From positions 62,001 to 126,000 of the forward strand of contig NZ_JABWDU010000007.1 of the NCBI RefSeq assembly GCF_013371465.1: a stretch of DNA of 64,000 nucleotides, written 5' to 3'. The position numbers were made by a program, and so were the translations under genes. This document shows positions 44,964 through 64,000 of the stretch, piece after piece. Position 1 is the first letter of the stretch; every line of letters starts with the position of its first letter. A model generated the notes under the pieces. The model was not told where the DNA came from. It ran no database searches and saw only the letters and a program-made list of their open reading frames with translations. This stretch comes from Ensifer oleiphilus (GTDB taxonomy: Bacteria; Pseudomonadota; Alphaproteobacteria; Rhizobiales; Rhizobiaceae).

Positions 44964-46166
44964 TCACGGCCGCCTCAGAAGCATCGAGATACCCTGTCCG
45001 ACGCCGATACACATGGTCGCAACCGCGCGCTTCGCGCCTTGGGCTTCAAGCTCCAGTGCGGCCGTAAGCGCCAGGCGCGCACCCGACATGCCCAGCGGAT
45101 GGCCGAGTGCGATGGCGCCGCCATTCGGATTGACGTTGGACGCGTCGTCGGCAAGCCCCAATTGCCGCATGCAGGCGAGAGCCTGCGCCGCGAAAGCCTC
45201 GTTGAGCTCGACGATGTCGATGTCGCCGATGCAAAGGCCGAGACGTTCAAGCAGCTTTCGGGTGGAATTGACGGGGCCGATGCCCATGATGCGTGGCGCA
45301 ACACCCGCCGTTGCCATGCCGTCGATCCGGGCGAGGGGCTCAAGACCGTAGCGTTCGACAGCGCGATCGGAGGCGAGCACGAGTGCCGCCGCCCCGTCAT
45401 TGACGCCGGACGCATTGCCGGCGGTTACCGTGCCATTGGCGCGAAAGGGCGTCGGCAGGCTGGCAAGCTTTTCGAGGGTCGTCTCACGTAGGTGTTCGTC
45501 CTGTTCGACGTACGTCGTGTCGCCCTTTCGCCCCCTGATCGGATAGGGAGCGATTTCGCGGGCGAACCGCCCGTTCTTTTGCGCGGTCGCTGCGCGCGCC
45601 TGGCTGCGCAACGCAAAGGCGTCCTGATCTTCACGCGCGATCGAAAACTCTGTCGCGACGTTTTCGGCCGTGTCCGGCATGGGGTCTATGCCGTATCGCT
45701 CTTTCATCAGCGGATTGACGAAGCGCCATCCGATGGTCGTGTCGTGGATCTCGGTGCTGCGTTGAAACGGGCTTTCGGCCTTCGGGATGACGAAGGGCGC
45801 GCGTGACATGCTCTCCACACCGCCGGCGATAACAACCTCCGCCTCGCCCAGCCGGATGGCGCGTGCGCCGTAGCCAACGGCATCGAGGCCCGAACCGCAA
45901 AGCCTGTTGATCGTCGTTCCCGCCACCGTATCCGGCAGCCCGGCAAGCAAGGCCGCCATGCGGGCGACGTTGCGATTGTCCTCTCCCGCCTGGTTGGCGC
46001 AACCGAAGACAACCTCGTCGATCGCGTCGGCCGGAACACTTGCAAAACGTGCCAGCGCTTCGCGGATCACGTGGGCGGCGAGATCATCGGCTCGCACGCT
46101 CGACAGCGCGCCGCCATAGCGACCGATCGGCGTGCGAACGCCGCCGATGAGAAAGGCTTCACGCAT
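44964..46166 (-). CDS. Beta-ketoadipyl-CoA/acetyl-CoA thiolase (PcaF/PaaJ-like)
   Basis: A 400-residue thiolase. The nucleophile is C90 (INRLCGSGLDAV), the active-site histidine H356 (ALGHPLG) and the second cysteine C386 (CIGVGQG). The N-terminus REAFLIGGVRTPIGRYGGAL is characteristic of 3-oxoadipyl-CoA thiolases, which split 3-oxoadipyl-CoA into succinyl-CoA and acetyl-CoA. It is the last gene of the aromatic operon and overlaps the upstream hydratase/dehydrogenase gene by eight bases. In this operon it would perform the final thiolysis after ring cleavage; the chain length of its natural substrate is inference. Confidence 0.9.
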   Translation of the reverse strand: MREAFLIGGVRTPIGRYGGALSSVRADDLAAHVIREALARFASVPADAIDEVVFGCANQAGEDNRNVARMAALLAGLPDTVAGTTINRLCGSGLDAVGYGARAIRLGEAEVVIAGGVESMSRAPFVIPKAESPFQRSTEIHDTTIGWRFVNPLMKERYGIDPMPDTAENVATEFSIAREDQDAFALRSQARAATAQKNGRFAREIAPYPIRGRKGDTTYVEQDEHLRETTLEKLASLPTPFRANGTVTAGNASGVNDGAAALVLASDRAVERYGLEPLARIDGMATAGVAPRIMGIGPVNSTRKLLERLGLCIGDIDIVELNEAFAAQALACMRQLGLADDASNVNPNGGAIALGHPLGMSGARLALTAALELEAQGAKRAVATMCIGVGQGISMLLRRP

Positions 46167-48141
46167 GGGGCTCGCCCTTGTTTTGCTCTGCGGCGAACAT
46201 CGGCCCGCCTCTGTGTGCTGGAAATCCGTAGCCGTTGATCATCACTACGTCGATGTCGCCGGGACGCGCCGCGATGCCGTCGGTAAGCAGTGCCGTTCCT
46301 TCATCGACCATCGCCTTCAAGAGCCGGCTCATGATCTCCGCGGGGGTGAAAATGCGCGGCGCAATGTTCTTGGCCGCCCGCGCCGCCTCGATCACCGCGG
46401 TCACCTCGGGATCAATGGTCCGCTTGCCATCGGGATAGGCATACCAGCCGCGACCGATCTTGTGGCCAAGGCGACCCGCCTCACAAAGCCGGTCGGCGAT
46501 TTCGACGTAACGTGCGGCAGGGTCCCGCGTCGCCGCCTGGCGCTTGCGGCGTGCCCAGGCAATTTCCAGCCCGGCCATGTCGTTGACGGCGAAGATGCCC
46601 ATCGGAAAGCCATAGGCTTCGAGCGCGGCATCGATCTCCTGGGGCAGCGCGCCGTCCTCCAGCATGAATTCCGCCTCGCGGCGATAGGCCGAGAAGATGC
46701 GGTTGCCGATGAAGCCTTCGGTGACGCCGCAGACCACCGGCAGCTTGCCGAGGCGTTTGACGAAAGCGAGGGCGCTGGCTAGGACCTCTGGTGCTGTCTT
46801 GACGCAGTCGACGACTTCAACCAGTCGCATGACATTGGCCGGCGAGAAGAAATGGAGCCCGACCACGCGTGACGGATCTGCCGTCGCGGCGGCAATCGCA
46901 TCGGGATTTAAGTAACTCGTATTGGTAGCAAGAATGGCGTCGGCTCTGACGATGCCGTCAAGCTTGCGAAACAGGTCGGTCTTGACCGTGAGGTCGTCAA
47001 AGACTGCTTCGATGACAAGGTCGGCCTTCACAAGTTCCTCGGCCTCGGCGGTCGTCTGCAATCGGGCGAGGCATTCCGCGCGTCCGTCCGCGGTGAACCG
47101 AGCGGAGCGTACGGATTTGTCCAGGGTCTCGGCGATGCGTGCCCTGCCGCCGGCTGCCGCTTCTGGGCTCTGTTCCAGCGCGATGACGCTGTGGCCGGAC
47201 GTCAGGGCGGCGACGGCGATGCCAGATCCCATGAGCCCGGTGCCGACCACGGCGACGGTCTCGATCCTGCGCGACGAGGCTTTGTCGAGGCCCTCGACCT
47301 TACCCGCGGCGCGCTCGGCGAAGAAGACGTGCCGCAGGGCAGCGGACTCGCTGGAATCGCGCAAACGCAGGAAGGTGGCGCGTTCGGCGGCCAATCCTCT
47401 TCTGAGGTCGAGTTCGCCGGCTGCCTTGACGAGGCGAATGGCCTCCGCGGGGGCGGACTGGCCGCGTGCTCGCGCTAGCACTTTCGCTTCAGCGGCGCTG
47501 ACTGTCGTTGGGTCCGTGGAAGGAACGCCGATCATGCCAGTCCGGCGCAGCGGTTTTCCGCTAGCTTCGTGCACCAGCGCGATGGCGGCGCCAACGGGAG
47601 CGGTGGCGACACCATCGGCAAGCCCAAGCGTGACGGCTTCGGCCGCCTTGACAGGACGCCCCGTGCCGACGAGCTCGATCGCTGCGACCAAGCCAACCAA
47701 GCGCGGCAGACGCTGCGTCCCGCCGGCACCCGGCACGATCCCGAGTTTCACCTCGGGCAGCCCGAACGATGCCTTTTCGCCGGCGATGCGGCCGTGGCAA
47801 GCGAGAGCCACTTCGCAGCCTCCGCCAAGGGCGGCGCCGTTGACTGCAGCGACAACAGGCTTTTCGAACGTCTCGATGCGCTCGATCACATCGGGAAGCA
47901 TAGGTTCGACCGGCGGCTTGCCGAACTCCTTGATATCGGCTCCGCCTATGAACGTGCTGCCGGCACCCGTCAGGACGATGCCCGTTGCCGCGTCAAGAGA
48001 GGCAGTATGATCGAGTGCCGCCATCAAGCCGGAGCGCACATCTGCGGACAGGGCGTTGACAGGCGGGTTGTCGATGACGACGACGAAAACACCGTCTCGA
48101 AGGCGAGCGGAGATGCTCTTTGAAAATGGGATGTCTGCCAT
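46159..48141 (-). CDS. Bifunctional enoyl-CoA hydratase / 3-hydroxyacyl-CoA dehydrogenase
   Basis: A 660-residue fusion of a crotonase domain (about 1-190) and a 3-hydroxyacyl-CoA dehydrogenase (about 293-655). The crotonase part keeps both catalytic glutamates, E110 (GGGCEVALACH) and E130 (GLPEVKLGIVPG). The dehydrogenase has the NAD motif G300-T-G302-L-M-G305 and the catalytic histidine in VGLHFFSPANVMRLVEVV. ATG 48141 follows GAGGT and starts the hydratase domain correctly; the longer open frame upstream overlaps the Rid gene out of frame and is not coding. It carries out the hydration and second oxidation steps of beta-oxidation on the ring-cleaved CoA ester. Confidence 0.92.
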   Translation of the reverse strand: MADIPFSKSISARLRDGVFVVVIDNPPVNALSADVRSGLMAALDHTASLDAATGIVLTGAGSTFIGGADIKEFGKPPVEPMLPDVIERIETFEKPVVAAVNGAALGGGCEVALACHGRIAGEKASFGLPEVKLGIVPGAGGTQRLPRLVGLVAAIELVGTGRPVKAAEAVTLGLADGVATAPVGAAIALVHEASGKPLRRTGMIGVPSTDPTTVSAAEAKVLARARGQSAPAEAIRLVKAAGELDLRRGLAAERATFLRLRDSSESAALRHVFFAERAAGKVEGLDKASSRRIETVAVVGTGLMGSGIAVAALTSGHSVIALEQSPEAAAGGRARIAETLDKSVRSARFTADGRAECLARLQTTAEAEELVKADLVIEAVFDDLTVKTDLFRKLDGIVRADAILATNTSYLNPDAIAAATADPSRVVGLHFFSPANVMRLVEVVDCVKTAPEVLASALAFVKRLGKLPVVCGVTEGFIGNRIFSAYRREAEFMLEDGALPQEIDAALEAYGFPMGIFAVNDMAGLEIAWARRKRQAATRDPAARYVEIADRLCEAGRLGHKIGRGWYAYPDGKRTIDPEVTAVIEAARAAKNIAPRIFTPAEIMSRLLKAMVDEGTALLTDGIAARPGDIDVVMINGYGFPAHRGGPMFAAEQNKGEPHA

Positions 48142-48152
48142 GTCGGCAAACC

Positions 48153-48548
48153 TCAATCGGGGACGACGGCGGTGACCTGGATCTCGATCTTGGCGCGGTC
48201 TTCTACCAATGAGACCACCTGCATCGCCGCCATGGCAGGGAAATGCCGACCGATGATGTCGCGGTAGGCCTGGCCGATGCCGCGCAGGTTGCCGACATAT
48301 TCCTGCTTGTCGGTGAAATACCACGTCATCGTGGTAATATGCTCCGGCCCGGCGCCTCCGGCCGCGAGCACCGCTACGACATTCTTCAGCGTCTGGCGCA
48401 CCTGCTCCACGAAATCGTCGGTTTCGAACTCGGATTGTGCATTCCAACCGATCTGGCCGCCGACAAAAACCGTGCGGCCTCTGGCAGCGACGCCGTTGGC
48501 GTAACCGATCGGCTTTGCCCAACCTTCAGGTTGCAGGATGGTGTGCAT
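48153..48548 (-). CDS. RidA/YjgF-family protein lacking the usual arginine
   Basis: A 131-residue Rid-superfamily protein. The family pattern is visible (VFVGGQIGWNA, FVEQVRQTLKNVVAVLAAGG, and the C-terminal VEDRAKIEIQVTAV). RidA proper hydrolyses enamine/imine intermediates using an arginine in a PAR motif; here the corresponding segment reads P104-A-M106-A-A-M, so the arginine is replaced by methionine. Related Rid proteins without the arginine exist and may have other reactions. Lying inside the 2-aminobenzoyl-CoA operon, it is a good candidate to handle the amino or enamine group of the dearomatised ring, but this is inference. Confidence 0.85.
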   Translation of the reverse strand: MHTILQPEGWAKPIGYANGVAARGRTVFVGGQIGWNAQSEFETDDFVEQVRQTLKNVVAVLAAGGAGPEHITTMTWYFTDKQEYVGNLRGIGQAYRDIIGRHFPAMAAMQVVSLVEDRAKIEIQVTAVVPD

Positions 48549-48657
48549 GTGTCGTCTCCAGATGTTGTGACAACGCGGCGCGGATGCAATCCGGCCAGGC
48601 TAATGAAGCGTGAGCGCCGAACGACGCCCTTGAATCTTGCGCATTCGGCACCCCTCG

Positions 48658-49854
48658 CTATCGTCTCGTGCCCTTCATCAGCTCGCGGCCGATGATGAGC
48701 TTTTGAACTTCGGTCGCGCCCTCGTAGATGCGCAAAGCGCGGATCTCGCGATAGAGCCGCTCGGTGATCTCGCCAACGCGCACGCCACGACCGCCGAAGA
48801 GCTGCAGGGCCTGGTCGATGACCCATTGCGCATTCTCGGTCGCCGTCATCTTGGCCATTGCGGCCTCGCGTGTCGTCGGCCGCTTCTGCACGTCGCGCTG
48901 CCACGCAGTGCGGCAGGTCAGAAGGGCTGCGGCGTCGATTGCGGTCGCCATCTCGCCGAGCGTGCTTTGCGCCGTCGGCAGATCGGCAAGGGTCGCGCCG
49001 AACATCCTGCGGCTCTTTGCGTGCGCCACCGCCTCGTCCAGTGCGCGGCGGGCAAAGCCGATGGCCGCCGCAGCGACGGACGGGCGGAAGATGTCGAGTG
49101 TGCGCATGGCGATCTTGAAGCCTTCGCCGGCACTGCCGAGAAGCTGCGACGCCGGGATACGGCATGTGTCGAAACGCAGCCGGGCAAGCGGATGCGGCGC
49201 GATCGTCTCGATGCGCTCGGCAATCACTAAGCCCGGTGTGTCGGCGAACACCACGAAGGCTGAGATGCCGCGCGTACCGGGTGCCTCGCCGGTGCGGGCA
49301 AAGACGGTGTAGACGTCGGCGATGCCGCCGTTCGAGATAAAGGTCTTTTCGCCATCGAGCACGAAGTCCTCTCCGTCGCGCCGGGCAGCACAGGCCATTG
49401 CCGCGACATCCGATCCTGCATCGGGCTCGGAAAGCGCAAAGGCGGAGATCCATTCGCCGCTGGCGACCTTCGGCAGAATGGCCTGCTTCAGCGCCTGCGA
49501 ACCGGAAAGGCTGATCGCGCCGGTGCCGAGCCCCTGCATGGCAAAGGCGAAGTCGGCAAGCCCGTCGGTGTAGGCAAGCGTTTCGCGGATAAGGCAGAGC
49601 GACCGGCTGTCGATTTCTTCGCTCGCCCCGCCGAACGCCTTCGGCACGCAATGGCGAAGCACGCCTGCAGCACCGAGGGCGCCGACCAGATGCCGGCAGG
49701 CGGCATCGACATTTGCGTTATCGATCTCGCCGAGGCCGCCGTTGGCGATGAACGCGTCCAACTCCGTGGCAAGCGCACGGTGGCCCTTCTCGAAGAACGG
49801 CCAGTCGAAATGGTCGCGGGTCGGCTGAAGTGGAGCCTTCTCCTGAAGGTCCAT
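48658..49854 (-). CDS. Acyl-CoA dehydrogenase
   Basis: A 398-residue flavoprotein starting [15 protein letters not shown] at ATG 49854, two bases after the stop of the crotonase gene. FAD and substrate motifs include [11 protein letters not shown] and [13 protein letters not shown]; the catalytic base is E378 in [11 protein letters not shown]. Length is normal. It would introduce the alpha-beta double bond into the alicyclic or ring-opened CoA ester formed from 2-aminobenzoyl-CoA. A 109-base gap follows before the Rid gene. Confidence 0.93.
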
Positions 49855-49856: not shown

Positions 49857-50699
49857 TCAGTTCCCCTTGAACTCGGGCTTGGCCTTGGCTGCAAAGGCCT
49901 CGAAGGCGCGGCGGAAGTCGCCGGTCGCCATGCAGATCGCCTGGGCTTGTGCTTCCGCTTCGATCAACTGGTCGATGCCCATCGCCCATTCCTGATCGAG
50001 CATCTTCTTTGTCATCGCGTGGGCAAACCACGGGCCGTCGGCAATGCCGCGTGCGAATTTCTGAGCTTCGGAAAGCAACACCGAGCGCTCGTGCAGCGCG
50101 TTATAGAAGCCCCAGGCATGCCCTTCCGTTGCGGTCATCGCCCGACCAGTGAAAAGCAATTCCGCGGCGCGACCCTGGCCGATGATGCGGGGAAGAATTC
50201 CGCAGGCGCCCATGTCTGCTCCGGCGAGCCCGACGCGCGTGAACAGAAATGCCGTTTTCGCTTCCGGCGTCGCCACGCGGAAGTCGGAAGCCATCGCCAG
50301 GATCGCGCCGGCGCCGGCGCAGATACCGTCGACCGCTGATACGACCGGCTGAGGGCAAGCGCGGATCTGGCGCACCAGTTCGCCGGTCATTCGAGTGAAA
50401 TCGATGAGGTCGGGCATCGACATGCGCGTCAGCGGCTCGATGATCTCGAAGACGTCGCCGCCGGAGGAAAAGTTGTCATTGGCGCCGGTCAGGACAACGG
50501 CGCGCACGTCGCTTGCCCGGCCGAGTGCCCGGAAGAGATCGACAAGCTCTTCGTAGCTCTCGAAGGTCAGCGGATTCTTCTTCTCCGGACGGTTGAGGGT
50601 GATCGTGGCGACCCGGCCGTCGGCATCTGTTTCGAACAGGAAGTGCTGGGCCTTGTGATCCCTAAAGGGGCGCTTCTTGGCCTGCATCGGGTTTGTCAT
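49857..50699 (-). CDS. Enoyl-CoA hydratase/isomerase family protein with non-standard active site
   Basis: A 280-residue crotonase-fold protein. The oxyanion-hole segments are [10 protein letters not shown] and [17 protein letters not shown]. At the two places where classical hydratases carry glutamates this protein has isoleucine (GAGAILAM) and the segment [12 protein letters not shown], which offers an aspartate instead, so ordinary enoyl-CoA hydration is doubtful. ATG 50699 follows TTGGAGGATAGAG and is three bases after the upstream SDR stop. In the aromatic operon it may hydrate or hydrolytically open the non-aromatic ring; the reaction is inferred. Confidence 0.85.
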
Positions 50700-50701: not shown

Positions 50702-51478
50702 CTATCCTCCAAGAACTTCGCCACCGGCGACTGCGATGGCCTGGCCCGTGATCGCGCTCGCCTTCTCCGACACGAGCCATGAGACGGTGTCGGCCACCTC
50801 GTCAGGCGTCACCAGGCGCCCTTGCGGATTGGCCCGCGCCAGGCTTGCACGCGCTTCCTCACGCGAACGGCCGGTCTTCTCGCTGATTGTATCGAGCGCG
50901 CCCTCAATCAGCGGGGTGTCGGTGAACCCGGGGCAGACTGCATTGATCGTGACGTCGGTGCGCGCAAGCTCGAGTGCCAGCGCGCGCGTCAGGCCGATGA
51001 CGCCGTGCTTCGAGGCGCAATAGGCGGAGACATAGGAGTAACCGGTGAGACCCGCCGTGCTCGCGACGTTGACAATCCGGCCGTTTCCGGCCCGGCGCAC
51101 GGAGGAAAGCGCTGCCTGCGTCACCAGAAAAACCCCGGTCAGGTTGGTTGTGAGCACCCGTTGCCAGAGCGACAGATCGGTTTTCTCGAATGGCGCCGAA
51201 GGCGCTTCGCCGGCGCAGTTGACGAGAACCGCAATCTCTCCGCTCTTGGCAATTGCAACCGAAATGCCTTGCTCGACCGCCACCGGGTCGGTCACGTCGA
51301 AGCCGCCAAGCACATGGGCGTGGCCGCCAGACGACAGAATTTCGTCTCGCACGGCATTAAGCGGTGCTGCGCGGCGGCCGGCAAGGCTGACAATGTGGCC
51401 ATCGGCTGCGAGCGCGAGCGCGATTGCCTTGCCGATGCCGCTTCCGGCCCCTGTTACGAGCGCGTGCCTGCGGTTCAT
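50702..51478 (-). CDS. Short-chain dehydrogenase (3-hydroxyacyl-CoA dehydrogenase-like SDR)
   Basis: A 258-residue classical SDR. The cofactor motif is [10 protein letters not shown] at residues 10-19, the NNAG-equivalent reads [10 protein letters not shown], and the catalytic pair is in SAYCASKHG. The C-terminal [15 protein letters not shown] and [11 protein letters not shown] fit the 3-oxoacyl reductase/hydroxyacyl dehydrogenase branch. It overlaps the upstream flavoprotein gene by four bases. A likely role is oxidation or reduction of a ring hydroxyl or keto group next to the CoA thioester. Confidence 0.88.
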
Positions 51479-53796
51479 GGTTTGCCTGCCGTCGTTGCCG
51501 CGCGCGCCAGGTTGTTCACATATTGCGCGCGGGCGGAGTTGTACTGCTTCGGCCAGGGCTCGCCATCGTAACCGATCTTCGCTGCCTCGTGCAGGACGAA
51601 GGAAGGATCCGCCAGGTGTGGGCGGGCGATCGCGCAGAGGTCGGCGCGGCCGGCGGCGATGATCGAATTGGCGTGATCCGCTTCGGAAATCGCCCCGACG
51701 GCGATGGTCGGCACCTGGATCTCGTTGCGGATCTTGTCGGAAAAGGGGGTCTGGAACAGCCGGCCGTAGACAGGCTGTTCTTCCTTGACCACCTGGCCGG
51801 AGGAGCAGTCGATCATGTCGGCGCCGGCCTCCTTGAACAGGCGGGCAAAGACGGCCGCGTCGTCCGGCGTATTGCCGCCCTCGTGCCAGTCGTGCGTCGA
51901 CAGACGCACCGACATCGGTCGATCCTCGGGCCAGATCTTGCGAACTGCGTGGAATACTTCGAGCGGGAAGCGGGCGCGGGCCGCGTGGTCGCCCCCATAG
52001 TCGTCCGTGCGAAGGTTGGTGAGCGGTGACAGGAAACTTGAAAGCAGGTAGCCGTGCGCCACGTGCAGCTCGAGGATGTCAAAGCCAAGGTCCCGGGCCC
52101 GCTCGGTGGCCTGTATGAAGTCGGCAACGACGCGGTCCATATCCGCACGGGTCATCTCGCGCGGCGTGTCCGAATGCTTGAGGTAGGGCAGGGCGGATGC
52201 CGAAATGAGTGGCCAGGCGCCTTCGTTCAAAGGTTGGTCGATCCCCTCCCAGGCGAGCTTGGTCGCGCCCTTGCGTCCGGCGTGTCCGAGCTGGATGCCG
52301 ATCTTGGCTTGGGTCTGCTGGTGCACGAAGTCGACGATGCGCTTGTAAGCCAGCGTCTGTTCGGCGTTCCACAGGCCCAGGCACCCCGGCGTGATGCGGG
52401 CGTCGGGCGATACGCAGGTCATTTCCGGGAAAACGAGTGCGGCGCCGCCCATGGCGCGTGCGCCCAGATGCACCAGATGAAAGTCGTTCGGCACGCCATC
52501 GGTCGCTGAATACATCGCCATCGGCGAGACCACGATGCGGTTCCTGAGCGTCAGGCCACGCAGCTTGAACGGCGTGAACATCGGTGGCGGGACGGCTCCG
52601 CTTGCCGCAGGCGCGACACCGGCGCGTTCGGCAAACCAGCGCTCGAAGCCTTCGAGCCAGTCCTTGTCTCGCAGGCGGAGGTTTTCGTGGCTGATGCGCT
52701 GCGAGCGGGTCAACATCGAATACATGAACTGCTCGGGCTCCAGCGTATCGGCATAACGCGTGCCGACGACCTCGAACCATTCCATGGCATTGCGGGCGGC
52801 ATTCTGGATGCGGGCGACATCAACCCGGCGGATCTCTTCGTAAGCCTGGAGCACGTCGGGGATGCTGGCCTTGTCGTGGCCGAACGTATCGAACTGGCGG
52901 GTCAGCTCGATGGCGTCGTCGATCGCGAGCTTGGTGCCCGACCCGATGGCGAAATGCGCGGTATGGGCGCTGTCGCCCATTAGGACGACGTGGCTATTGC
53001 CGTTGAAGTGGCTCCACTTCTCGCAGATCAACCGGCCGAAATTCAGCCAGGCCGAGCCGCGCATATGGCGCGCATTGGTCATCAGCTTATGACCATCGAG
53101 CGTCTCGGCAAAAAGTTTTTCGCAAAACGCGATCGACTGGTCCTGATCCATCTGGTCGAGGCCATGGGCGCGGAAAACATCGTCGGTGGTCTCGACGATG
53201 AAGGTCGAGGTGTCGTCGTCGAAACGGTAGATATGCGCTTGGAACCAGCCGTGTTCGGTGCGCTGGAAGTCGAAGGTGAAGGCATCGAAGCGCTTGTTGG
53301 TGCCGAGCCAGACATAGCGGTTGGGACGGATGACCATGTCCGGCTGGAAGACATCGGAGTATCTGTTGCGAATTCGGGAGTTGACGCCATCGGAAGCGAT
53401 GATGAGGTCGGCATCGGCAAATTGCTCGTCGCTTTCCACGTCCTGCTCGAACACGAGTTCGACACCGAGTTCGAGGCAGCGCTCCTGGAGGATGTTGAGC
53501 ATCTTCTTGCGGCCGATGCCGACGAAGCCGTGGCCCGTCGTCCTGATCTTGCGGCCCTTGAAGACCAGCTCGATATCGTCCCAATGGTTGAAGGAAACCT
53601 CGATGGCCTCAGCCGTTTCCGGATCCCACTTTCGCATCGACTGCATCGTGGCGTCCGAGAAGACCACCCCCCAACCGAAGGTATCGAAGGCGCGGTTGCG
53701 CTCGACGACCGTTACCTGGTGCTCCGGGTGCTGGCGCTTCATCAGCAACGCAAAATAGAGGCCGGCTGGCCCGCCACCGATACAGACGATCCGCAT
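51475..53796 (-). CDS. 2-aminobenzoyl-CoA monooxygenase/reductase-like bifunctional flavoprotein
   Basis: A 773-residue fusion. The N-terminal half (1 to about 390) is a single-component aromatic monooxygenase with the FAD motif G7-G8-G9-P-A-G12, [13 protein letters not shown] and [14 protein letters not shown] near 272-285. The C-terminal half (about 406-760) is an old-yellow-enzyme-like NAD(P)H:flavin oxidoreductase with [18 protein letters not shown] and [16 protein letters not shown]. This architecture and size are those of 2-aminobenzoyl-CoA monooxygenase/reductase of Azoarcus evansii and of enzymes annotated as salicylyl-CoA 5-hydroxylase/oxidoreductase. It hydroxylates and then reduces (dearomatises) the CoA-bound ring. 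GGGAGGAG precedes ATG 53796; the 20 codons upstream in frame are not family-like. It heads the operon. Confidence 0.9.
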
Positions 53797-53895
53797 GTCG
53801 TTCTCCTCCCGAGCTCCGGCCGCGCGCGTCGCCGCCCTGATGCCGTTGGCGGTCATCCGGAACTGCTTGAGGCAAGGGTGGACTCATTCACAATA

Positions 53896-55414: not shown

Positions 55415-55446
55415 CAAGTACCCTTAACGCCCGCGCCGTTGAGCTC

Positions 55447-56623: not shown

Positions 56624-57403
56624 ATGCTGGAAATCAGATCGGCCCGCAAGGTCTTCTACAAGGGGCAAGCAGACGAGAAGGTCGCGCTCGACGGCCTCAG
56701 CCTCCGCCTCGCGACGGGCGAATTCGGCGTCGTCATAGGCTCGAACGGCGCCGGCAAGAGCAGCATGCTCAACGCAATTTCCGGCGCACTCGTGCTCGAT
56801 GCGGGACAGGTTGTCATCAATGGCGACGACGTGACGGCTATGCCCGTCCACAAACGCGCGATGCGGCTCGCACGCGTCTTCCAGGACCCGATGCGCGGCA
56901 CCGCAGCCAGCATGACGGTGGCGGAAAACATGTTGCTCGCCGACCTTCGCAGCAACAAGCGCACGCTCCGCCGTGGCCTCAACGCGACGCGGCTCGCGTC
57001 CTACAAGGAGCGGCTCTCTCTGCTGGGTCTCGGGCTGGAAAACCGCCTCGATACCCGTGTGGAACTGCTGTCGGGCGGCCAACGGCAATCGCTGTCCCTG
57101 ATCATGGCCGTCGGTGGGAAGCCGGAACTGCTGCTGCTTGACGAACACACCGCAGCACTTGACCCGCGCACGGCCGATATCGTCATGCAGGCGACGATCC
57201 GCGCGGTCGAAGCCCTGAAGCTGACCACGCTGATGGTGACGCACAATATGCAGCACGCCGTAGATTTCGGCCACAAGGTCGTCATGCTCGATGCAGGACG
57301 CGTTCGCCTGGAGATCGACGGCAAGGACAAGGCCCAGACGACGGTGCCGGATCTGATCGGCCATTTCTCCGTCAAAACCGACCGCATGTTCCTGGCGAGT
57401 TGA
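56624..57403 (+). CDS. ABC transporter ATP-binding protein, TrpZ-like
   Basis: A 259-residue ATPase. Walker A is G39-S-N-G-A-G-K45-S-S, the signature LSGGQRQSLSLIMA and Walker B LLLLDEHTAALDP; the DEHTAALDP form, with His instead of Pro, is normal for the partners of ABC_sub_bind proteins. GGGGGGAG precedes the ATG. It ends in a region where the permease start overlaps or follows within a few bases. Confidence 0.93.
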   Translation: MLEIRSARKVFYKGQADEKVALDGLSLRLATGEFGVVIGSNGAGKSSMLNAISGALVLDAGQVVINGDDVTAMPVHKRAMRLARVFQDPMRGTAASMTVAENMLLADLRSNKRTLRRGLNATRLASYKERLSLLGLGLENRLDTRVELLSGGQRQSLSLIMAVGGKPELLLLDEHTAALDPRTADIVMQATIRAVEALKLTTLMVTHNMQHAVDFGHKVVMLDAGRVRLEIDGKDKAQTTVPDLIGHFSVKTDRMFLAS

Positions 57404-57408
57404 CGATC

Positions 57409-58332
57409 ATGGATATCATTCAAAACATCATCTCGAGCTTCGTCTCGCTCGTTCCCGTCACGCTGGCGCAAAGCCTGATCCTCGCCTTCGTGGTGATGGG
57501 GATCATGATCCCGTTTCGCATGCTGAGCTTCCCGGATCTGACCAGCGAAGGCGCGTTCCCGCTCGGCGGCTGCGTCTGCGGCGTACTCATGGCGGCCGGC
57601 ATGTCGCCATTGGCGGCGATTGCCATTGCCTTGGTGGCGGGCTTCGTTGCCGGCTGCTGCACCGCGTTCATTCACCTGCGCTTCCGGATCCACACGCTGC
57701 TCGCCGGCATCTTGATGATGACGATGCTCTATTCGATCAACCTGCGCATCATGGGCCGCTCGAACATCTCGGTCTTCGGAGCGCCGACGGTCTTTGACTG
57801 GGTGCCGGGGTTGCAACCGGGTTTCCCGGCAAGCAAAATCGCCGTGGCAGGCCTCATCGCGCTCGTCGTCTTCGTCCTGCTCTATCATTTCTTCCGGACG
57901 GAAAAGGGCACGGCTGTCCGCGCCGTCGGCGCGAACCCGGATATGGCGGAAGCCCAGGGCATCAATGTCTGGATGGCGACCATTGGCGGCGTCGGGCTTG
58001 CTGGCGCATTCTCGGCGGCCGGCGGCGCACTGATGGTGCAGTCGCAAGGCTTTGCCGACGTCAATATGGGGCTCGGCATCCTGATCAACGGGCTGGCTGC
58101 GCTGATGATCGGTGAAGCGATTGTCGGTAAACAAAGCGTGCTGCGCCAGCTCGCCGCTCCGTTCGTCGGTGCGGTCGTCTACTATCAGCTCGTCTCCCTC
58201 TGCCTGGCTGCCGGCATGCCGCCGCCGGATCTGAAGCTTGCGACGGGCCTGTTCGTTCTGGCCATGCTGGCTCTTCCGAGCCTCAAGCGAGGCCGTGGGC
58301 CGGCACCCGCCCGCGAAACCGTACGCGAATAA
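57409..58332 (+). CDS. ABC transporter permease, TrpY-like
   Basis: A 307-residue permease with about eight hydrophobic segments, related to the branched-chain/ribose permease class (LTSEGAFPLGGCVCGVLMAA, then HTLLAGILMMTMLYSINLRI and a late ALMIGEAIVGKQSVLRQL). ATG 57409 is taken as start; a TTG at 57400 overlapping the ATPase stop is possible. With the preceding two genes it completes a TrpXYZ-like importer that is cotranscribed with kynureninase. Confidence 0.9.
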   Translation: MDIIQNIISSFVSLVPVTLAQSLILAFVVMGIMIPFRMLSFPDLTSEGAFPLGGCVCGVLMAAGMSPLAAIAIALVAGFVAGCCTAFIHLRFRIHTLLAGILMMTMLYSINLRIMGRSNISVFGAPTVFDWVPGLQPGFPASKIAVAGLIALVVFVLLYHFFRTEKGTAVRAVGANPDMAEAQGINVWMATIGGVGLAGAFSAAGGALMVQSQGFADVNMGLGILINGLAALMIGEAIVGKQSVLRQLAAPFVGAVVYYQLVSLCLAAGMPPPDLKLATGLFVLAMLALPSLKRGRGPAPARETVRE

Positions 58333-58346: not shown

Positions 58347-59594
58347 ATGAGTGCTGTACCTGATCTTGCAGCGATCGAGGCTATGGATGCGGCCGACGTG
58401 CTGCGCCCGATGCGCGACCGCTTCATCCTGCCGCCGGGCCTCATCTATCTCGATGGCAACTCGCTCGGTGTTGCCTCGACCGCGGCCTTCGACGAACTCC
58501 GAAAGGCGGCAACCGAGGAATGGGGGCAGGATCTCATTCGCAGCTGGAACACGGCCGGGTGGTTCGACATGCCGCTCGCGCTCGGCGACCGTGTCGGGCG
58601 GCTGATCGGGGCTGCCGCCGGCCAGACCGTCGTTTGCGACACCACGTCGATCAATATCTACAAGACCCTGCATGCCGCCATGGCGCTCCGACCGGATCGT
58701 TCCATGATCGTCAGCGAAGGTGGCAGCTTCCCGACCGATCTCTACATGGCCGAGGGCGTGGTTTCGACGCGCCCCGGCGCCTCGTTGCGCCTCGAAGGGG
58801 TCGATGCGCCCGAGATCGAGGACCTGATCAACAGTGACGTGGCCGTGGTTCTGGTCAACCACGTCAACTACAAGTCCGGCGAACTCCGCGACATGGCGGC
58901 GCTGACGCGCAAGGCGCATGAGCACGGCGCGCTGGTCATCTGGGATCTCTGCCATACGGCCGGCGCCCTGCCGGTCGATCTCGACGGCGCCGATGTCGAT
59001 TTCGCCGTCGGCTGCACCTACAAGTACCTGAACGGCGGGCCTGGGGCTCCTGCTTTCATCTATGCCGCGACGCGCCACCACAGCGATATCCGTCAGCCGC
59101 TCAGCGGCTGGTGGGGGCATGCTCGTCCCTTCGCCTTCGAGAAGAACTACGCCGCCGGCGAGGGGGTCCGCCGCTTTCTTTGCGGCACACAGCCGATCCT
59201 GTCGCTGCGGGCGCTCAAGGGCGCACTCGACGTCTGGGACACGGTCGACATGGCGCAGCTCCGCGAAAAGAGCATCCGGCTGACGGATCTCTTCATCACG
59301 CTTGTCGAAGAAAAATGCGGCGCTCACGGCCTCGAGCTCGAAAGCCCGCGCGACGGGACCAAGCGCGGAAGCCAGGTCTCGTTCAGCCATCCGAACAGCT
59401 ATGAGATCATGCAGGCGCTGATTGCGCGCGGAGTCATTGGCGATTTCCGCGCACCCACCACGATGCGGTTCGGCTTCACACCGCTCTACGTCAGCTATGC
59501 CGACGTCTGGCAGGCGGTGGCCATTCTTGAAGAGATCCTACGCACCGGTTCGTGGCAGGATGCGCGTTTTGCCGTTCGCGCCGCCGTGACCTGA
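58347..59594 (+). CDS. kynU: Kynureninase
   Basis: A 415-residue PLP enzyme of aminotransferase class V that splits L-kynurenine into anthranilate and L-alanine. The PLP-binding lysine is K226 in CTYKYLNGGPGAPAF, the cofactor-contacting D200 and H203 lie in WDLCHTAGALP, and LDGNSLG at 36-42 is the family N-terminal signature. Length is normal for bacterial KynU. It follows the permease by 14 bases. It produces the anthranilate that the divergent operon at 44964-53796 is equipped to degrade once activated to its CoA ester. Confidence 0.95.
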   Translation: MSAVPDLAAIEAMDAADVLRPMRDRFILPPGLIYLDGNSLGVASTAAFDELRKAATEEWGQDLIRSWNTAGWFDMPLALGDRVGRLIGAAAGQTVVCDTTSINIYKTLHAAMALRPDRSMIVSEGGSFPTDLYMAEGVVSTRPGASLRLEGVDAPEIEDLINSDVAVVLVNHVNYKSGELRDMAALTRKAHEHGALVIWDLCHTAGALPVDLDGADVDFAVGCTYKYLNGGPGAPAFIYAATRHHSDIRQPLSGWWGHARPFAFEKNYAAGEGVRRFLCGTQPILSLRALKGALDVWDTVDMAQLREKSIRLTDLFITLVEEKCGAHGLELESPRDGTKRGSQVSFSHPNSYEIMQALIARGVIGDFRAPTTMRFGFTPLYVSYADVWQAVAILEEILRTGSWQDARFAVRAAVT

Positions 59595-59706: not shown

Positions 59707-60675
59707 ATGATCGCGCCACACCGCCCGACGCCCGCCGAAATCGTTGAGGCTCGCGAGTGCATTGCTCCCCACGTCCCGCGCACGCCCTTGGTCCGGCTCG
59801 ACCTCGGGCTTGCGGACCGGCAGATTTTCCTGAAGCTGGAGACCCTCTCTCCGATCGGCGCCTTCAAACTGCGCCCGGCATTGAACGCCGTGCTTTCGCG
59901 TGATCCCACGGCTTTGCGCAATGGCGTGGCGGTCACAAGCTCCGACAACATGGCCTACGGCATGGCCTGGGCCGCGCGCCTGATCGGCGTGCCGATGGTC
60001 GCCTACATGTATCGCGGCGCGCCGCAGACCAAAATCGACGGTGTGCGGGACCTTGGTGGCGAGGTACGCTTCGTGAGCGCGGAGACCTGGTGGGACTATA
60101 TTGTTGGTGCGGACCGGCCCGATGCGCCGGAATTGCTGATCAATCCGGTGACCAATCAGGCGGTGCTGGCCGGAAACGGCTCCATCGGCATGGAAATCCT
60201 CGAGGATCTGCCTGAGGTCAATGTGGTGTTCACGCCTTATGGCGGCGGCAGCATGACGACGGGGGTCGCCAGCGCCGTGAAAGCCACGTCCGACCGTTGC
60301 CGCGTTTTTGCGGTCGAAGACGACAGCGCCGCCCCGGTATGCGCGGCCCTGGAGGCCGGGCGGATCGTGACCATCGAGACCAGACCGTCGTTCATCAAGA
60401 GCATCGGGGCTCCCTCTTTGGTACCGCAGCTTTGGCCGGTTGCACGCGAACTGATCGACGGCGCCATCGCGATCAGCCCGGCCCAGGTGACCGACGCGAT
60501 GCGGCTGCTGTTCAGGAAAGCGAAGATCGTCGCCGAAGGTGCGGGGGCTGCGTCGCTCGCCGCCGCGATCTCGCGACCGGATCTCAAAGGAAACATTGTC
60601 TGCGTGATCTCGGGCGGCAACATTGACGCTGCAGCCTATTCGACCGTCCTTGCCGGCGGCATTCCCGCGGCCTGA
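59707..60675 (+). CDS. PLP-dependent threonine dehydratase-like enzyme
   Basis: A 322-residue fold-type II PLP enzyme. The PLP lysine is K54 in PIGAFKLRPA, and the glycine-rich phosphate loop reads TPYGGGSMTTGVA. The loop that normally reads SSGNHAQG in threonine/serine dehydratases is TSSDNMAYGMAWAA here, with Asp replacing the Gly and Met replacing the His. Overall length resembles short dehydratases such as catabolic threonine dehydratase and the hydroxyectoine-utilisation EutB group. The substrate is unknown. It lies 112 bases after kynU on the same strand and convergent with livF, so a role in amino acid disposal linked to kynurenine use is possible. Confidence 0.8.
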   Translation: MIAPHRPTPAEIVEARECIAPHVPRTPLVRLDLGLADRQIFLKLETLSPIGAFKLRPALNAVLSRDPTALRNGVAVTSSDNMAYGMAWAARLIGVPMVAYMYRGAPQTKIDGVRDLGGEVRFVSAETWWDYIVGADRPDAPELLINPVTNQAVLAGNGSIGMEILEDLPEVNVVFTPYGGGSMTTGVASAVKATSDRCRVFAVEDDSAAPVCAALEAGRIVTIETRPSFIKSIGAPSLVPQLWPVARELIDGAIAISPAQVTDAMRLLFRKAKIVAEGAGAASLAAAISRPDLKGNIVCVISGGNIDAAAYSTVLAGGIPAA

Positions 60676-60685: not shown

Positions 60686-61372
60686 TCAGATCCCGAGATA
60701 GCGGTCCTGAAGTGCCGGCGTCAACGTTGCCGGTGATCCCGTGAACACGGTGACGCCCTTTTCCAGCACGAAGCAGCGGTCGGCGACGGGCAGCAGTTCG
60801 GAAAGCGTCTTGTCGACGACGAGGATCGATTGGCCCGCCGCCTTGAGCGTGCGGATTGCAGACCAGATGTCCTGCCGGATAACCGGCGCAAGCCCCTCGG
60901 TTGCCTCGTCGAGAATGAGTAGTCTGGGATTGGTCATCAGCGCCCTGCCGATCGCAAGCATCTGCTGTTCGCCGCCCGAGAGCGTGTTGGCGTATTGGTC
61001 GCGGCGCTCGCCGAGTCTTGGGAAAAGTGCGACGACCTTCTCCAAGGTCCACTCCGTCCCGCGAGCGGTGGCAACGAGATTTTCCATGACGGTGAGATTG
61101 GGAAAGCAGCGCCGTCCCTCGGGCACAAGCCCAAGACCGAGCCTGGCAATGCGATGCGATCGCAGTCCGAAGATCGACTTGCCGGCGAAGGTGATAGCGC
61201 CCGAGCGCGGGCGCACGAGGCCGAGGATCGAGTTGATCGTCGTGGTCTTGCCCATGCCGTTGCGGCCCATGAGGGCGACAACTTCGCCCTCCCGCACATC
61301 GAGGTCGACGCCGAAGAGCGCCTGGGAAGCGCCGTAGAAGGTCTCGAGGCCTTTCAGTGCGAGCAGGCTCAC
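60686..61372 (-). CDS. livF: Branched-chain/aromatic-type ABC transporter ATP-binding protein
   Basis: A 228-residue LivF-type ATPase. Walker A is G36-R-N-G-M-G-K42-T-T, the signature LSGGEQQMLAIGRALM and Walker B LLILDEATEGLAP, all typical of the LivF branch. Its ATG overlaps the livG stop by four bases. The Liv family imports branched-chain amino acids but also aromatic acids and amides, and its place beside kynureninase and the aminobenzoyl-CoA genes favours an aromatic substrate. Confidence 0.93.
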   Translation of the reverse strand: MSLLALKGLETFYGASQALFGVDLDVREGEVVALMGRNGMGKTTTINSILGLVRPRSGAITFAGKSIFGLRSHRIARLGLGLVPEGRRCFPNLTVMENLVATARGTEWTLEKVVALFPRLGERRDQYANTLSGGEQQMLAIGRALMTNPRLLILDEATEGLAPVIRQDIWSAIRTLKAAGQSILVVDKTLSELLPVADRCFVLEKGVTVFTGSPATLTPALQDRYLGI

Positions 61373-62118
61373 GCGGTTTCTCCAAGATAGGCCCGGCGAA
61401 CGTCGGGATCGCTGCGGATTTCATCGACGGTGCCGCTCGCGATAATGCGGCCGTAGACGAGCACGGATACCCGGTCCGCCAGCGCAAAGACCGCATCCAT
61501 GTCGTGTTCGACGAGCAGCATTGGCGCTTGGTGGCGCAACTCGTCGAGGAAGGACGTCAGCCGCTTGGAACCCTCCGGTCCCATGCCGGCCATCGGTTCG
61601 TCGAACAGAAAAGCCCTTGGCGAAAGCGCCAGCGCTATGGCGATCTCCAGCTGCCGGCGTTCGCCGTGCGACAGTTCCGCTGCCGGCACGTGGGCACGGG
61701 TTGCAAGCCCAACCCGCTCCAGCATCGCCATCGCCGGTTCGGTCAGGGTCTTGTCGTCGGTAACCTGGCGGAAGAAGCGGAAGCTGCTGCCTTGCCTTGC
61801 CTGCACCGCCAGCATCACATTGCGCAGGGCCGAGAATTCCTGCGCGAGAGAGGAAATCTGGAAGCTGCGGGCAAGGCCGAGCCGGGCACGGGCGGCCATG
61901 TCCAGCCCGCCGATATCGCGACCGAGAAACCGGATCGTGCCGCTGTCGGCTTTGAGCGAGCCGGCGATCTGGTGGATGAGGGTGCTCTTTCCGGCGCCAT
62001 TCGGGCCGATCAGTGCATGGATCTGTCCCGGCCGAAGCTCGAGACTGACCCCATCGGTCGCCTTCAGGGCGCCGAAGGATTTTCTGAGATCGTGGATTTC
62101 GAGGACTGGCTCAGACAT
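61369..62118 (-). CDS. livG: Branched-chain/aromatic-type ABC transporter ATP-binding protein
   Basis: A 249-residue LivG-type ATPase beginning MSEPVLEIHDLRKSFG at ATG 62118, within the last codons of livM (8-base overlap); further upstream in-frame codons lie inside livM and are not family-like. Walker A is G38-P-N-G-A-G-K44-S-T, and the signature reads LSHGERRQLEIAIAL, with His in the LSGGE position as usual in this branch. Walker B is AFLFDEPMAGMGP. Confidence 0.93.
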   Translation of the reverse strand: MSEPVLEIHDLRKSFGALKATDGVSLELRPGQIHALIGPNGAGKSTLIHQIAGSLKADSGTIRFLGRDIGGLDMAARARLGLARSFQISSLAQEFSALRNVMLAVQARQGSSFRFFRQVTDDKTLTEPAMAMLERVGLATRAHVPAAELSHGERRQLEIAIALALSPRAFLFDEPMAGMGPEGSKRLTSFLDELRHQAPMLLVEHDMDAVFALADRVSVLVYGRIIASGTVDEIRSDPDVRRAYLGETA

Positions 62119-63088
62119 GACGCGGCTTTCCGCAGAGCAGGCCGAGCAATCCGCCGCGCGCAAAGAGCACGATGCCGAGCAGGATGAGGCCAAGGAAGAA
62201 TTGCCAACGCTCGGTGATGCCGCCGAGCACGTATTCGAAGAACACGAAGATCATGGCGCCGGCGACCGGCCCGAACAGCCGACCCTTGCCGCCGAGGATG
62301 ATGAGCACGATCAGTTCGCCCGACATGTGCCAGGACAGCATCGACGGGCCGACGAAGCGATTGAGGTCGGCATAGAGCGCGCCGGCAAAGCCGGTGATCA
62401 TGGCGGAGGCGGCGAAGGCGACGAGGCGAATACTGAAGGGCGCGATGCCAACGGCGGCAAGGCGCGTTCCGTTCTGCCGCGCCGCCTGCAATGCGCTGCC
62501 GAAGCGTGAGCCCTCGATTATGCGAAACAGAAGAAGCGCGCCCATGAGGGCCGCGTAGCAGATGAGGAAATAGGGCAGGGGCTTGGCGGTGTTGACACCG
62601 GGAAAGGCGTTGCGCATCGACAGCGACAGGCCGTCCTCGCCACCATAGGCAGGCCAGGAGATGGCGAAGTAGTAGATCATCTGCGCGAAGGCGAGCGTGA
62701 TCATGATGAAATAGACACCTGACGTGCGCAGGCTGATCGCTCCGATCGGCAGTGCGACGAGGCCGGCGACCGCCACCGCCGTCATCCAGATGAGCGGCAT
62801 CGAAGTCGTGCCGGGAATATCGGCAAACAGCGGTTCGGCATTGAAGGCGTGGGTCGCCAGAATGCCGGCGACATAGCCGCCGAGGCCGAAGAAGGCAGCG
62901 TGTCCGAAGGACAGGAGCCCGCCAAGCCCGAGTGCCAAATTGAGGCCGACGGCGGCGAGCGCGAGCACGACGACACGGGTCGCAAGCGTCACGTAAAAGG
63001 GTTCGCCCATGCCGGCGGCGACAAGCGGCGCGCCGAGAAGCAGAAGGGCGAGGAGGAGATTGACCGTGGTCTCGCGGCTCATGGGCAT
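62111..63088 (-). CDS. livM: Branched-chain/aromatic-type ABC transporter permease
   Basis: A 325-residue LivM-type permease with about nine hydrophobic segments. The motif ALGLGGLLSFGHAAFFGLGG and the later FAASAMITGFAGALYADLNR are diagnostic. The start is ATG 63088, directly behind the livH stop; ATG 63082 two codons on is an alternative. Shine-Dalgarno sequences are weak, suggesting coupling to livH. Confidence 0.92.
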   Translation of the reverse strand: MPMSRETTVNLLLALLLLGAPLVAAGMGEPFYVTLATRVVVLALAAVGLNLALGLGGLLSFGHAAFFGLGGYVAGILATHAFNAEPLFADIPGTTSMPLIWMTAVAVAGLVALPIGAISLRTSGVYFIMITLAFAQMIYYFAISWPAYGGEDGLSLSMRNAFPGVNTAKPLPYFLICYAALMGALLLFRIIEGSRFGSALQAARQNGTRLAAVGIAPFSIRLVAFAASAMITGFAGALYADLNRFVGPSMLSWHMSGELIVLIILGGKGRLFGPVAGAMIFVFFEYVLGGITERWQFFLGLILLGIVLFARGGLLGLLCGKPRHV

Positions 63089-63089: not shown

Positions 63090-64000
63090 TCACGAATGCG
63101 CCGAAAACAGGCCGCTCGGCCGGAAGGCAAGGATGAGGGCCATCACGACATAGATCAGCATCGAGGCGAGTGCCGCACCGATGGTGGTCGCCTGCGACGC
63201 GGGCATGGTCAATGCGAGCAGGGATGGAAGCAGGAAGCGCCCCATGGTGTCGACGACGCCGACAATGACCGCGCCGACGAGGGCGCCCTTTATGGAGCCG
63301 ATGCCTCCGATGACGATGACGACGAAGGCGAGGATGAGAACCGGCTCGCCCATCCCGACCTGAACCGACTGCAGGGCGCCGACCAGAGCGCCGGCAAGGC
63401 CCGCTAGTGCTGCGCCGAGCGCAAAGACGACCGTATAAAGCGTGCCTATGTCGACACCGAGCGCCCCGATCATTTCGCGATCGGACTCACCGGCGCGAAT
63501 GCGCATGCCGAGTCGGGTCCTGGAAATCAACAGATAGAGGCCTGCGGCCACGACGACACCGACGCCGATGATCGCCAGCCGATAGAGCTGGTATTGGCCG
63601 CCGCCCGGCAAGGCCACCGCGCCTTGAAGTTGGGGCGGTATGTCGAGATAGAGCGGGAAAGAGCCGAAGAGCCAGCGTGCGCCTTCAGAAAGGATGAGGA
63701 TCAGCGCGAAGGTTGCGAGGACCTGGTCGAGATGGTCGCGGTCGTAGAGTCTGCGAATGACGGCAACCTCGATGATCGCTCCGACGCCGGCGGCAGCCGC
63801 CAGGCTGGCGATCAGCCCGATCCAGAACGAGCCGGTCGCGGCAGCGACCGTGGCGCAGGCAAAGGCGCCGATCATGTAGAGCGAGCCATGGGCGAGATTG
63901 ATCAGGCCCATGACGCCGAAGATCAGCGTCAGGCCCGCGGCCATCAGAAACAGCATGACGCCGAGCTGAAGCCCGTTGAGCAGTTGTTCGATCAGGAGTG
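63090..64000 (-). CDS. livH: Branched-chain/aromatic-type ABC transporter permease (5' end outside window)
   Basis: A LivH-type permease open to the window edge. The visible 300-odd residues include QLLNGLQLGVMLFLMAAG at the very start, LTLIFGVMGLINLAHGSLYM, the coupling loop RAGESDREMIGALG and VVIGGIGSIKGALVGAV. The ATG at 63956 is an internal methionine, since the family N-terminus continues in frame beyond it. The genes upstream on the minus strand, expected to include a Liv-type binding protein and possibly a CoA ligase, lie outside the window. Confidence 0.92.
   Translation of the reverse strand, partial: LLIEQLLNGLQLGVMLFLMAAGLTLIFGVMGLINLAHGSLYMIGAFACATVAAATGSFWIGLIASLAAAAGVGAIIEVAVIRRLYDRDHLDQVLATFALILILSEGARWLFGSFPLYLDIPPQLQGAVALPGGGQYQLYRLAIIGVGVVVAAGLYLLISRTRLGMRIRAGESDREMIGALGVDIGTLYTVVFALGAALAGLAGALVGALQSVQVGMGEPVLILAFVVIVIGGIGSIKGALVGAVIVGVVDTMGRFLLPSLLALTMPASQATTIGAALASMLIYVVMALILAFRPSGLFSAHS

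Follow-up and report, generated by a model that had tools for sequence, protein, structure and literature searches.

A predicted tryptophan and kynurenine catabolic regulon leading to 2-aminobenzoyl-CoA in Ensifer oleiphilus

Overview of the island and proposed pathway

We analysed a gene island of Ensifer oleiphilus (genome size 6.76 Mb), which occupies positions 44964–64000 of a 64,000-nucleotide stretch of contig NZ_JABWDU010000007.1 (hereafter the window) and extends past its end. This island is very probably an aerobic catabolic regulon for tryptophan and kynurenine, in which tryptophan would be converted via kynurenine and anthranilate to 2-aminobenzoyl-coenzyme A (CoA); the enzyme activities, the substrates and the pairing of regulators with sites are predicted from sequence and gene position. 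The pathway type itself is already known. New are a DNA site shared by two promoter regions, a histidine/glutamine (His/Gln) marker in the central flavoprotein, and the assignments of two importers. A loosely annotated and misnamed gene cluster is thereby turned into a testable regulon with one 17-base site at two promoter regions in 14 genomes of the genus.

In the proposed route, kynurenine would first be formed from tryptophan by tryptophan 2,3-dioxygenase together with a likely formamidase, the two being encoded just past the window end. Kynureninase would cleave kynurenine to anthranilate and alanine, and an enzyme of the benzoate-CoA ligase family would convert anthranilate to 2-aminobenzoyl-CoA. 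The flavin adenine dinucleotide (FAD) half of a fused flavoprotein is predicted to hydroxylate the ring and its Old Yellow Enzyme half to reduce it, giving 2-amino-5-oxocyclohex-1-ene-carboxyl-CoA in a reaction of the Azoarcus evansii type. A Rid protein would remove ammonia, a short-chain dehydrogenase/reductase (SDR) would reduce a ketone, and a crotonase devoid of hydratase residues would open the ring; an acyl-CoA dehydrogenase, a hydratase/dehydrogenase fusion and a PcaF-type thiolase could finish by beta-oxidation, the order of these steps being presumed. A MarR-family regulator would act through one box on the flavoprotein operon as well as on the divergent promoter of the ligase–dioxygenase–Liv genes and the formamidase-like gene, and a GntR-family regulator on the genes for one importer and kynureninase. 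Anthranilate may enter via the Liv importer and kynurenine via a TrpXYZ-like importer.

Class of the fused flavoprotein

The fused flavoprotein (51475–53796, minus strand) combines an FAD monooxygenase with an Old Yellow Enzyme-type reductase (Pfam FAD_binding_3 and Oxidored_FMN) and scores 1360 bits against NCBIfam NF006101 (cut-off 1078). The name of that family is bifunctional salicylyl-CoA 5-hydroxylase/oxidoreductase. For comparison, 147 loci with a fused flavoprotein were assembled: the E. oleiphilus locus, 50 relatives, 16 plasmid loci, and 80 named loci. These loci are not independent (that of Ensifer sp. PDNC004 and that of G005, for example, apparently belong to the same replicon), and the named loci are the top 80, by similarity to a gentisate-context protein, among at least 584 relatives. 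Gene presence was counted at identity cut-offs in the fetched stretches, so that a gene situated past the end of a short contig or stretch was scored as absent.

The reductase motif H-x-x-H-x-Y, identified by alignment with solved Old Yellow Enzyme-type chains, is intact in the window protein (HVAHGY). Its first position is His in 127 of the 147 loci, including the window, and Gln in the other 20; for rows L117, L144 and L157 this residue was read from the locus sequence and not from the first alignment. Among the 20 Gln loci, 18 have a gentisate dioxygenase gene (at least 60% identity) nearby, one of these, L049, being the source of the query and so matching itself. None of the 127 His loci has one at that level; the His locus G097 has a homologue at 40% only. 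At least one of the genes for crotonase, acyl-CoA dehydrogenase, Rid protein and ligase (at least 45% identity) was detected in 116 of 127 His loci versus 0 of 20 Gln loci. Gln-type proteins beside genes for gentisate dioxygenase and fumarylacetoacetate hydrolase (FAH) were found in L043, L049, L117, L118, L126, L130, L133, L137, L139–L141, L143, L144, L150, L152, L153, L157, and L181, a set that includes Providencia and Xenorhabdus. The Gln-type proteins of L145 and L154 had no gentisate dioxygenase match and formed a separate pair in the tree.

The flavoprotein tree contained 118 rows, that is, 148 minus 30 near copies removed by hand (two gentisate-context rows among them), and was built by a quick method with midpoint rooting, with warnings on long rows such as pAL1, L157, and L181. 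All 16 gentisate-context rows in it fell into one clade (99 in the Shimodaira–Hasegawa-like approximate likelihood ratio test, SH-aLRT), nested among betaproteobacterial His-type proteins. The window protein was placed outside this clade, in an Ensifer-like one (SH-aLRT 100). The NCBIfam family name thus covers two protein classes, and the His/Gln position of the reductase domain is a sequence marker that splits proteins of the 2-aminobenzoyl-CoA type from gentisate-context proteins of the same name. The window flavoprotein is of the former, 2-aminobenzoyl-CoA monooxygenase/reductase type, with the corresponding activity predicted. The gentisate-context class looks derived, possibly through a change of the reductase half. 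When reduced nicotinamide adenine dinucleotide (NADH) is limiting, 5-hydroxyanthraniloyl-CoA is formed (excerpt of PMC3534580), which fits a hydroxylase with a failing reduction step.

The original prediction, made from the window sequence alone, had favoured the 2-aminobenzoyl-CoA class over the salicylyl-CoA class and had named clustering with salicylyl-CoA proteins as evidence to the contrary. The retained His and the placement in another clade than the gentisate-context proteins bear out this choice. The flavoprotein gene of A. evansii was not among the best 80 of at least 584 relatives from named genomes. Homologues of the monooxygenase half also occur in open frames of 921–938 residues (G047:C2:1004519, G034:C6:121495, G077:C3:409399, and G095:C87:13133), where they are possibly fused to something else.

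A site shared by two promoter regions

An imperfect palindrome, AATTTTAAGCTTGAAATTT, is located at 53895–53914, about 100 bp upstream of the flavoprotein start. This stretch, named here the abm box, was conserved between the MarR and flavoprotein genes in 18 aligned loci. The gene for the MarR-family regulator (54018–54569, minus strand; Pfam MarR_2) adjoins the box in the loci of the genus. A related stretch in the opposite orientation, ATTTCAAGCCTAAAGTT, is present between the ligase and hydrolase genes (16 loci aligned). The joint 17-base pattern ATTTCAAGCYTAAARTT was written from these same loci; it matches there by construction, and its test lies in other places. When 16 genomes of the genus were searched with at most one mismatch, every one of the 14 that carry the island had exactly two places, both perfect, and nothing further. 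The two are intergenic promoter regions, namely that of the flavoprotein operon and that between the ligase–dioxygenase operon and the formamidase-like gene. They are about 14 kb apart in 13 genomes, while in G011 one is found on each of two island contigs. No place was detected in G004 and G006, both without the flavoprotein, and the reversed pattern gave no match in the 16 genomes at the same level. With two mismatches, the E. oleiphilus genome yielded two additional places besides an opposite-strand match at the first box, and two matches came from the reversed pattern; therefore, only the level of at most one mismatch is specific.

Of the 127 His loci, 51, both alpha- and betaproteobacterial, carry the 12-base core TTYAAGCYTRAA in the 250 bp preceding the flavoprotein match; none of the 20 Gln loci does. 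This core had 52 matches in 36,750 upstream bases versus 26 in 3,179,584 others, and occurred in 0.02 loci on average when the upstream regions were mononucleotide-shuffled. From its position, we infer that the abm box is the operator bound by MarR, which would tie both operons to the MarR gene. No paper on such a site was among the literature matches listed, the searches not having been aimed at the site itself. A copy of the 19-base box was not found at the promoter of the TrpXYZ–kynureninase genes, the two matches in the window being one place; the intergenic stretch there contains other, AT-rich conserved blocks.

Conversion of tryptophan to 2-aminobenzoyl-CoA

Past base 64000, the LivH strand carries genes for a Liv-type binding protein, tryptophan 2,3-dioxygenase, and a CoA ligase, in that order. 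In window numbering, they occupy approximately 64105–65304 (Peripla_BP_6), 65285–66121 (L006:1786–2622; TIGR03036, 427 bits, cut-off 391), and 66125–67789 (L006:2626–4290; benzoate-CoA ligase family). The original prediction had noted the absence of the ligase from the window and proposed that it and a Liv binding protein be sought beyond the end; both were found there, the ligase about 2.1 kb away. The complete lack of an aromatic-CoA ligase, which would have spoken against the route, does not apply to this genome, and the best match of the ligase in PDB by sequence is anthranilate-CoA ligase 4wv3. The ligase is also 53% identical to an AMP-binding protein whose gene adjoins that of the flavoprotein on plasmid pAL1. 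Two genes of Arthrobacter sp. Rue61a are reported to have anthranilate-CoA ligase activity (excerpt of PMC3534580), and, judged by its position, the pAL1 gene is probably among them.

An alpha/beta hydrolase gene (approximately 68039–68890, outside the window) is divergent from the ligase gene. Its formamidase-like product has a PDB sequence match to kynurenine formamidase 4e11 (1.6e-16) and a stronger one to the putative esterase 2pbl. Kynureninase is encoded within the window (58347–59594, plus strand; TIGR01814, 360 bits, cut-off 246). Kynurenine as the starting compound, as originally suggested, agrees with the presence of this gene, but tryptophan is to be added as a second input because of the dioxygenase and the likely formamidase. 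The further suggestion that anthranilate is degraded without gentisate or catechol is in line with the search results: gentisate dioxygenase was not found at the locus, and the best match to anthranilate 1,2-dioxygenase in the genome reached 465 bits versus a cut-off of 672.

Lower pathway

The flavoprotein operon is read from the minus strand; its start codons were picked to agree with annotated orthologues. The flavoprotein gene is followed by genes for an SDR (50702–51478; Pfam adh_short), a crotonase (49857–50699; NF006107, 465 bits, cut-off 330), an acyl-CoA dehydrogenase (48658–49854; Pfam Acyl-CoA_dh and orthologue alignment), a RidA-family protein of 131 amino acids, likely an enamine/imine deaminase (48153–48548; PF01042, with orthologues at matching loci annotated as RidA), and an enoyl-CoA hydratase/3-hydroxyacyl-CoA dehydrogenase fusion (46159–48141; Pfam ECH_1 and 3HCDH). 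The last gene of this abm operon encodes a PcaF-type 3-oxoadipyl-CoA thiolase (44964–46166; NF006551, 668 bits, cut-off 605; TIGR02430, 657 bits, cut-off 597). Profile and Pfam matches showed all genes listed in the original prediction to be present where it had placed them. Neighbouring genes overlap or are at most 11 bp apart, except for 109 bp between the acyl-CoA dehydrogenase and Rid genes. In most relatives within the genus, this gap (48549–48657, minus strand) is the site of genes for a second acyl-CoA dehydrogenase and a thioesterase (order taken from L038). Neither was found at the loci of E. oleiphilus, G003, and G015; both are present in the other 11 of 14 genus loci.

According to the alignment, the hydratase domain of the fusion protein retains both hydratase glutamates, which we take to be catalytic. 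Neither glutamate occurs in any of the 107 crotonase orthologues aligned, which possess Ile, Met, Cys, Val or Leu at one place and Phe at the other; an aspartate within a DMGA stretch is present in all 107. The nearest solved relative of the crotonase by sequence is 3g64 (putative enoyl-CoA hydratase), followed by 4fzw (1,2-epoxyphenylacetyl-CoA isomerase). We propose that this hydratase-dead crotonase may be the ring-opening enzyme, acting after removal of the amino group by Rid. It would be a candidate for a step within a lower pathway that the literature, in the excerpts used here, describes only as beta-oxidation. In strain Rue61a grown on anthranilate, an acid C7H8O4 was reported to occur as its CoA ester, which may be cyclohexanedione-carboxyl-CoA (excerpt of PMC3534580).

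Five loci (L047, L081, L082, L083, and L197) contain genes for the flavoprotein, Rid, a thioesterase, and an FAH-family protein, with a cupin annotated in L047 and L197. Neither crotonase nor acyl-CoA dehydrogenase was found beside the flavoprotein in these loci. Since L197 is pAL1 of Arthrobacter sp. Rue61a, a different lower pathway for anthranilate may exist.

Importers and a second kynureninase cassette

The gene for a GntR/FCD regulator (54647–55417, minus strand; Pfam GntR and FCD) is divergent from the importer–kynureninase genes. On the plus strand, the latter encode a TrpX-like binding protein (55574–56557; Pfam ABC_sub_bind) and the ATPase (56624–57403; Pfam ABC_tran) and permease (57400–58332; Pfam BPD_transp_2) of a TrpXYZ-like ATP-binding cassette (ABC) importer, upstream of kynureninase. 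A GntR homologue also adjoins the TrpX copies inspected at the genus loci and in the second cassette described below. Homologues of the TrpX-like protein (at least 75% identity) were found at 21 places in 101 genomes, and 20 of these places are within about 2.1 kb of a kynureninase gene. The sole homologue apart from kynureninase, G055:C7, counts against kynurenine as the cargo.

Six of the 21 places belong to a second cassette, which is present in E. oleiphilus itself (contig C1; L198, G000:C1, 2920–12985) and in G003, G004, G005, G006, and G010, that is, in 6 of 16 genus genomes. The gene order is the same in all six: GntR, TrpXYZ, kynureninase, aldehyde dehydrogenase, LysR, DapA-like protein, 3-hydroxyanthranilate dioxygenase, and aspartate dehydrogenase-like protein. 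Tryptophan 2,3-dioxygenase had no match in G004 and G006, in a search that did not extend to other tryptophan-oxidising enzymes or to kynurenine 3-monooxygenase. The pairing with kynureninase, which includes these two genomes, makes kynurenine or 3-hydroxykynurenine the better guess for the cargo, and the TrpXYZ-like system is probably a kynurenine importer. No paper with a title on a bacterial ABC importer for kynurenine was among the literature matches listed. It is conceivable, with the balance slightly against it, that GntR–TrpXYZ–kynureninase is a portable module for kynurenine scavenging, whose importer is dedicated to this compound or to 3-hydroxykynurenine, and that in this genus it has been joined to two lower pathways, that of the anthranilate-CoA island and that of the 3-hydroxyanthranilate cassette. 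If so, the two genomes without a tryptophan 2,3-dioxygenase match would live on kynurenine from other organisms. Kynurenine is also made by fungi and animals.

The second importer is encoded on the minus strand by genes for LivF-like (60686–61372; Pfam ABC_tran) and LivG-like (61369–62118; Pfam ABC_tran and BCA_ABC_TP_C) ATPases and LivM-like (62111–63082) and LivH-like (63090–64000, with the start past the window end) permeases, both with Pfam BPD_transp_2. Together with the Peripla_BP_6 binding protein, the two BPD_transp_2 permeases and two ABC ATPases give a complete Liv/HAAT-type composition. LivK and LivH, the two proteins scanned, score under the cut-off of every NCBIfam Liv and Urt model. 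A Liv permease (at least 45% identity) is present at 33 of the 147 loci, accompanied by the ligase in all 33 and by tryptophan dioxygenase in only 18. Since this importer tracks the ligase, anthranilate is its most likely cargo. The genes for LivF and LivG are kept in the island across relatives of the genus, as is that for a pyridoxal phosphate-dependent ammonia-lyase-like protein (59707–60675, plus strand; Pfam PALP). Genes for a sugar-type ABC importer at 38995–43682 adjoin the island and were not counted within it.

Distribution and history

In the best rows of a nucleotide search, the island was 82–85% identical to plasmids of Ensifer/Sinorhizobium. Of the 101 genomes examined (E. oleiphilus included), 45 encode a flavoprotein over the family cut-off; within the genus, 14 of 16 do. 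The trait, originally regarded as distinctive, is thus ordinary for the genus. Of the 13 genus relatives that encode the flavoprotein, 12 share the full set of 22 genes with E. oleiphilus, which is not expected by chance. The exception is G011, where the genes for the ligase, dioxygenase, Liv proteins, and hydrolase are on another contig than the flavoprotein gene, and the thiolase was not found in the stretches fetched. At 13 of the 14 genus loci, genes for the dioxygenase and kynureninase stand together with that of the flavoprotein; in the remaining case, all three are in one genome. Among the 101 genomes, 51 have a full-length flavoprotein (45 over the cut-off plus six at 995–1054 bits), and tryptophan dioxygenase was detected in 37 of these, compared with 2 of the 50 others; the corresponding values outside the genus were 23 of 37 versus 2 of 48. 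The Fisher tests applied here are uncorrected for kinship.

In the ligase tree, the Ensifer-like loci group with other alphaproteobacterial-type loci (25 rows, SH-aLRT 100). This grouping is rejected by the flavoprotein data for the same 70 loci (approximately unbiased test, P of about 1e-6), a value that is descriptive, as the groups were named after seeing the flavoprotein tree and quick models were used. The two operons seem, from these sequence comparisons, to be of different origin.

Alternative interpretations

Several observations weigh against the proposed route. The E. oleiphilus genome also carries a 3-hydroxyanthranilate branch, since the second kynureninase cassette includes 3-hydroxyanthranilate dioxygenase, and the CoA route is not its only route for kynurenine. 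The ligase score of 374.9 bits is 0.4 bits under the cut-off of 375.25 for the benzoate-CoA ligase family, and the hydrolase is over the cut-off of NCBIfam HaHSL and not over that of any formamidase model. The flavoprotein is 49% identical to its pAL1 homologue, which is itself only putative, the A. evansii enzyme being outside this comparison. The site is not universal, as 76 of 127 His loci have no exact core within 250 bp, and the longer 19-base palindrome (at most three mismatches) was not found at the ligase side, where only the shared 17-base form is present. A true salicylyl-CoA 5-hydroxylase feeding gentisate would agree with the name of NF006101 and with the identity of the window protein to the 18 gentisate-context proteins (54–63%, versus 52–57% to 19 anthranilate-type proteins from other alphaproteobacterial-type loci). 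We consider it highly improbable and reject it: neither gentisate dioxygenase nor a matching FAH had a match in the island, all 18 gentisate-context proteins have Gln where the window protein has His, the 16 of them in the tree form their well-supported separate clade, and no Gln locus contains the ligase, Rid, crotonase or acyl-CoA dehydrogenase.

It is also unlikely, though with more in its favour, that the CoA part chiefly handles external anthranilate or anthranilate released from auxin, with the tryptophan genes as a secondary addition. The same core is found beside iad-like auxin genes in Azospirillum, many loci have no tryptophan genes, and the histories of ligase and flavoprotein differ. 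However, queries with the Azospirillum genes gave no Rieske or IadA-like match in window positions 40001–64000 or in L006. The promoter region shared by the ligase–dioxygenase operon and the formamidase-like gene also carries the abm box, and dioxygenase and kynureninase keep company with the flavoprotein in nearly all genus loci. Uptake of tryptophan by the TrpXYZ-like importer deserves somewhat more weight, yet we regard it as doubtful. Its nearest family, NF041285, is a tryptophan-binding protein, tryptophan dioxygenase is encoded in the same island, and some PDB relatives of the TrpX-like protein are presumably binders of aromatic amino acids; the score of 174.5 bits is, however, far under the cut-off of 390, and the pairing with kynureninase in 20 of 21 places extends to G004 and G006. 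We therefore retain the tryptophan/kynurenine regulon, with a proposed bacterial ABC importer for kynurenine.

Comparison with known systems

The plasmid of Ensifer sp. PDNC004 (NZ_CP070354.1; L038) has the same gene set and order as the E. oleiphilus island, but with a thioesterase and a second acyl-CoA dehydrogenase in addition. Plasmid pAL1 of Arthrobacter sp. Rue61a (L197) shares the flavoprotein (49%), ligase (53%), and Rid (37%), with the His motif intact. In contrast to the island, it carries genes for FAH-family, cupin, and thioesterase proteins, has no crotonase or acyl-CoA dehydrogenase annotated beside the flavoprotein, and receives its input from quinaldine. Genes of the 2-aminobenzoyl-CoA and kynurenine pathways are also combined in one genome in Cupriavidus metallidurans CH34, for which the excerpt of PMC8879955 describes no single island and its growth table records no growth on anthranilate. 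The iad auxin loci resemble the predicted regulon in being a MarR-controlled route to anthranilate in plant-associated bacteria, but their input is indole-3-acetate (excerpt of PMC9613470), and no Rieske/IadA-like genes were found at the E. oleiphilus locus. In Azospirillum thermophilum (L041), the same core operon is located beside iad-like auxin genes, which suggests that input modules are interchangeable. The aerobic 2-aminobenzoate pathway of A. (Aromatoleum) evansii (Schuhle et al., 2001, as described in an excerpt of PMC4539516) is, by description, similar to that of the island in its CoA ligase, fused monooxygenase/reductase, and further steps of the beta-oxidation type. In E. oleiphilus, by contrast, genes for tryptophan 2,3-dioxygenase, kynureninase, and two importers are combined with them, and control appears to rest with one MarR box.

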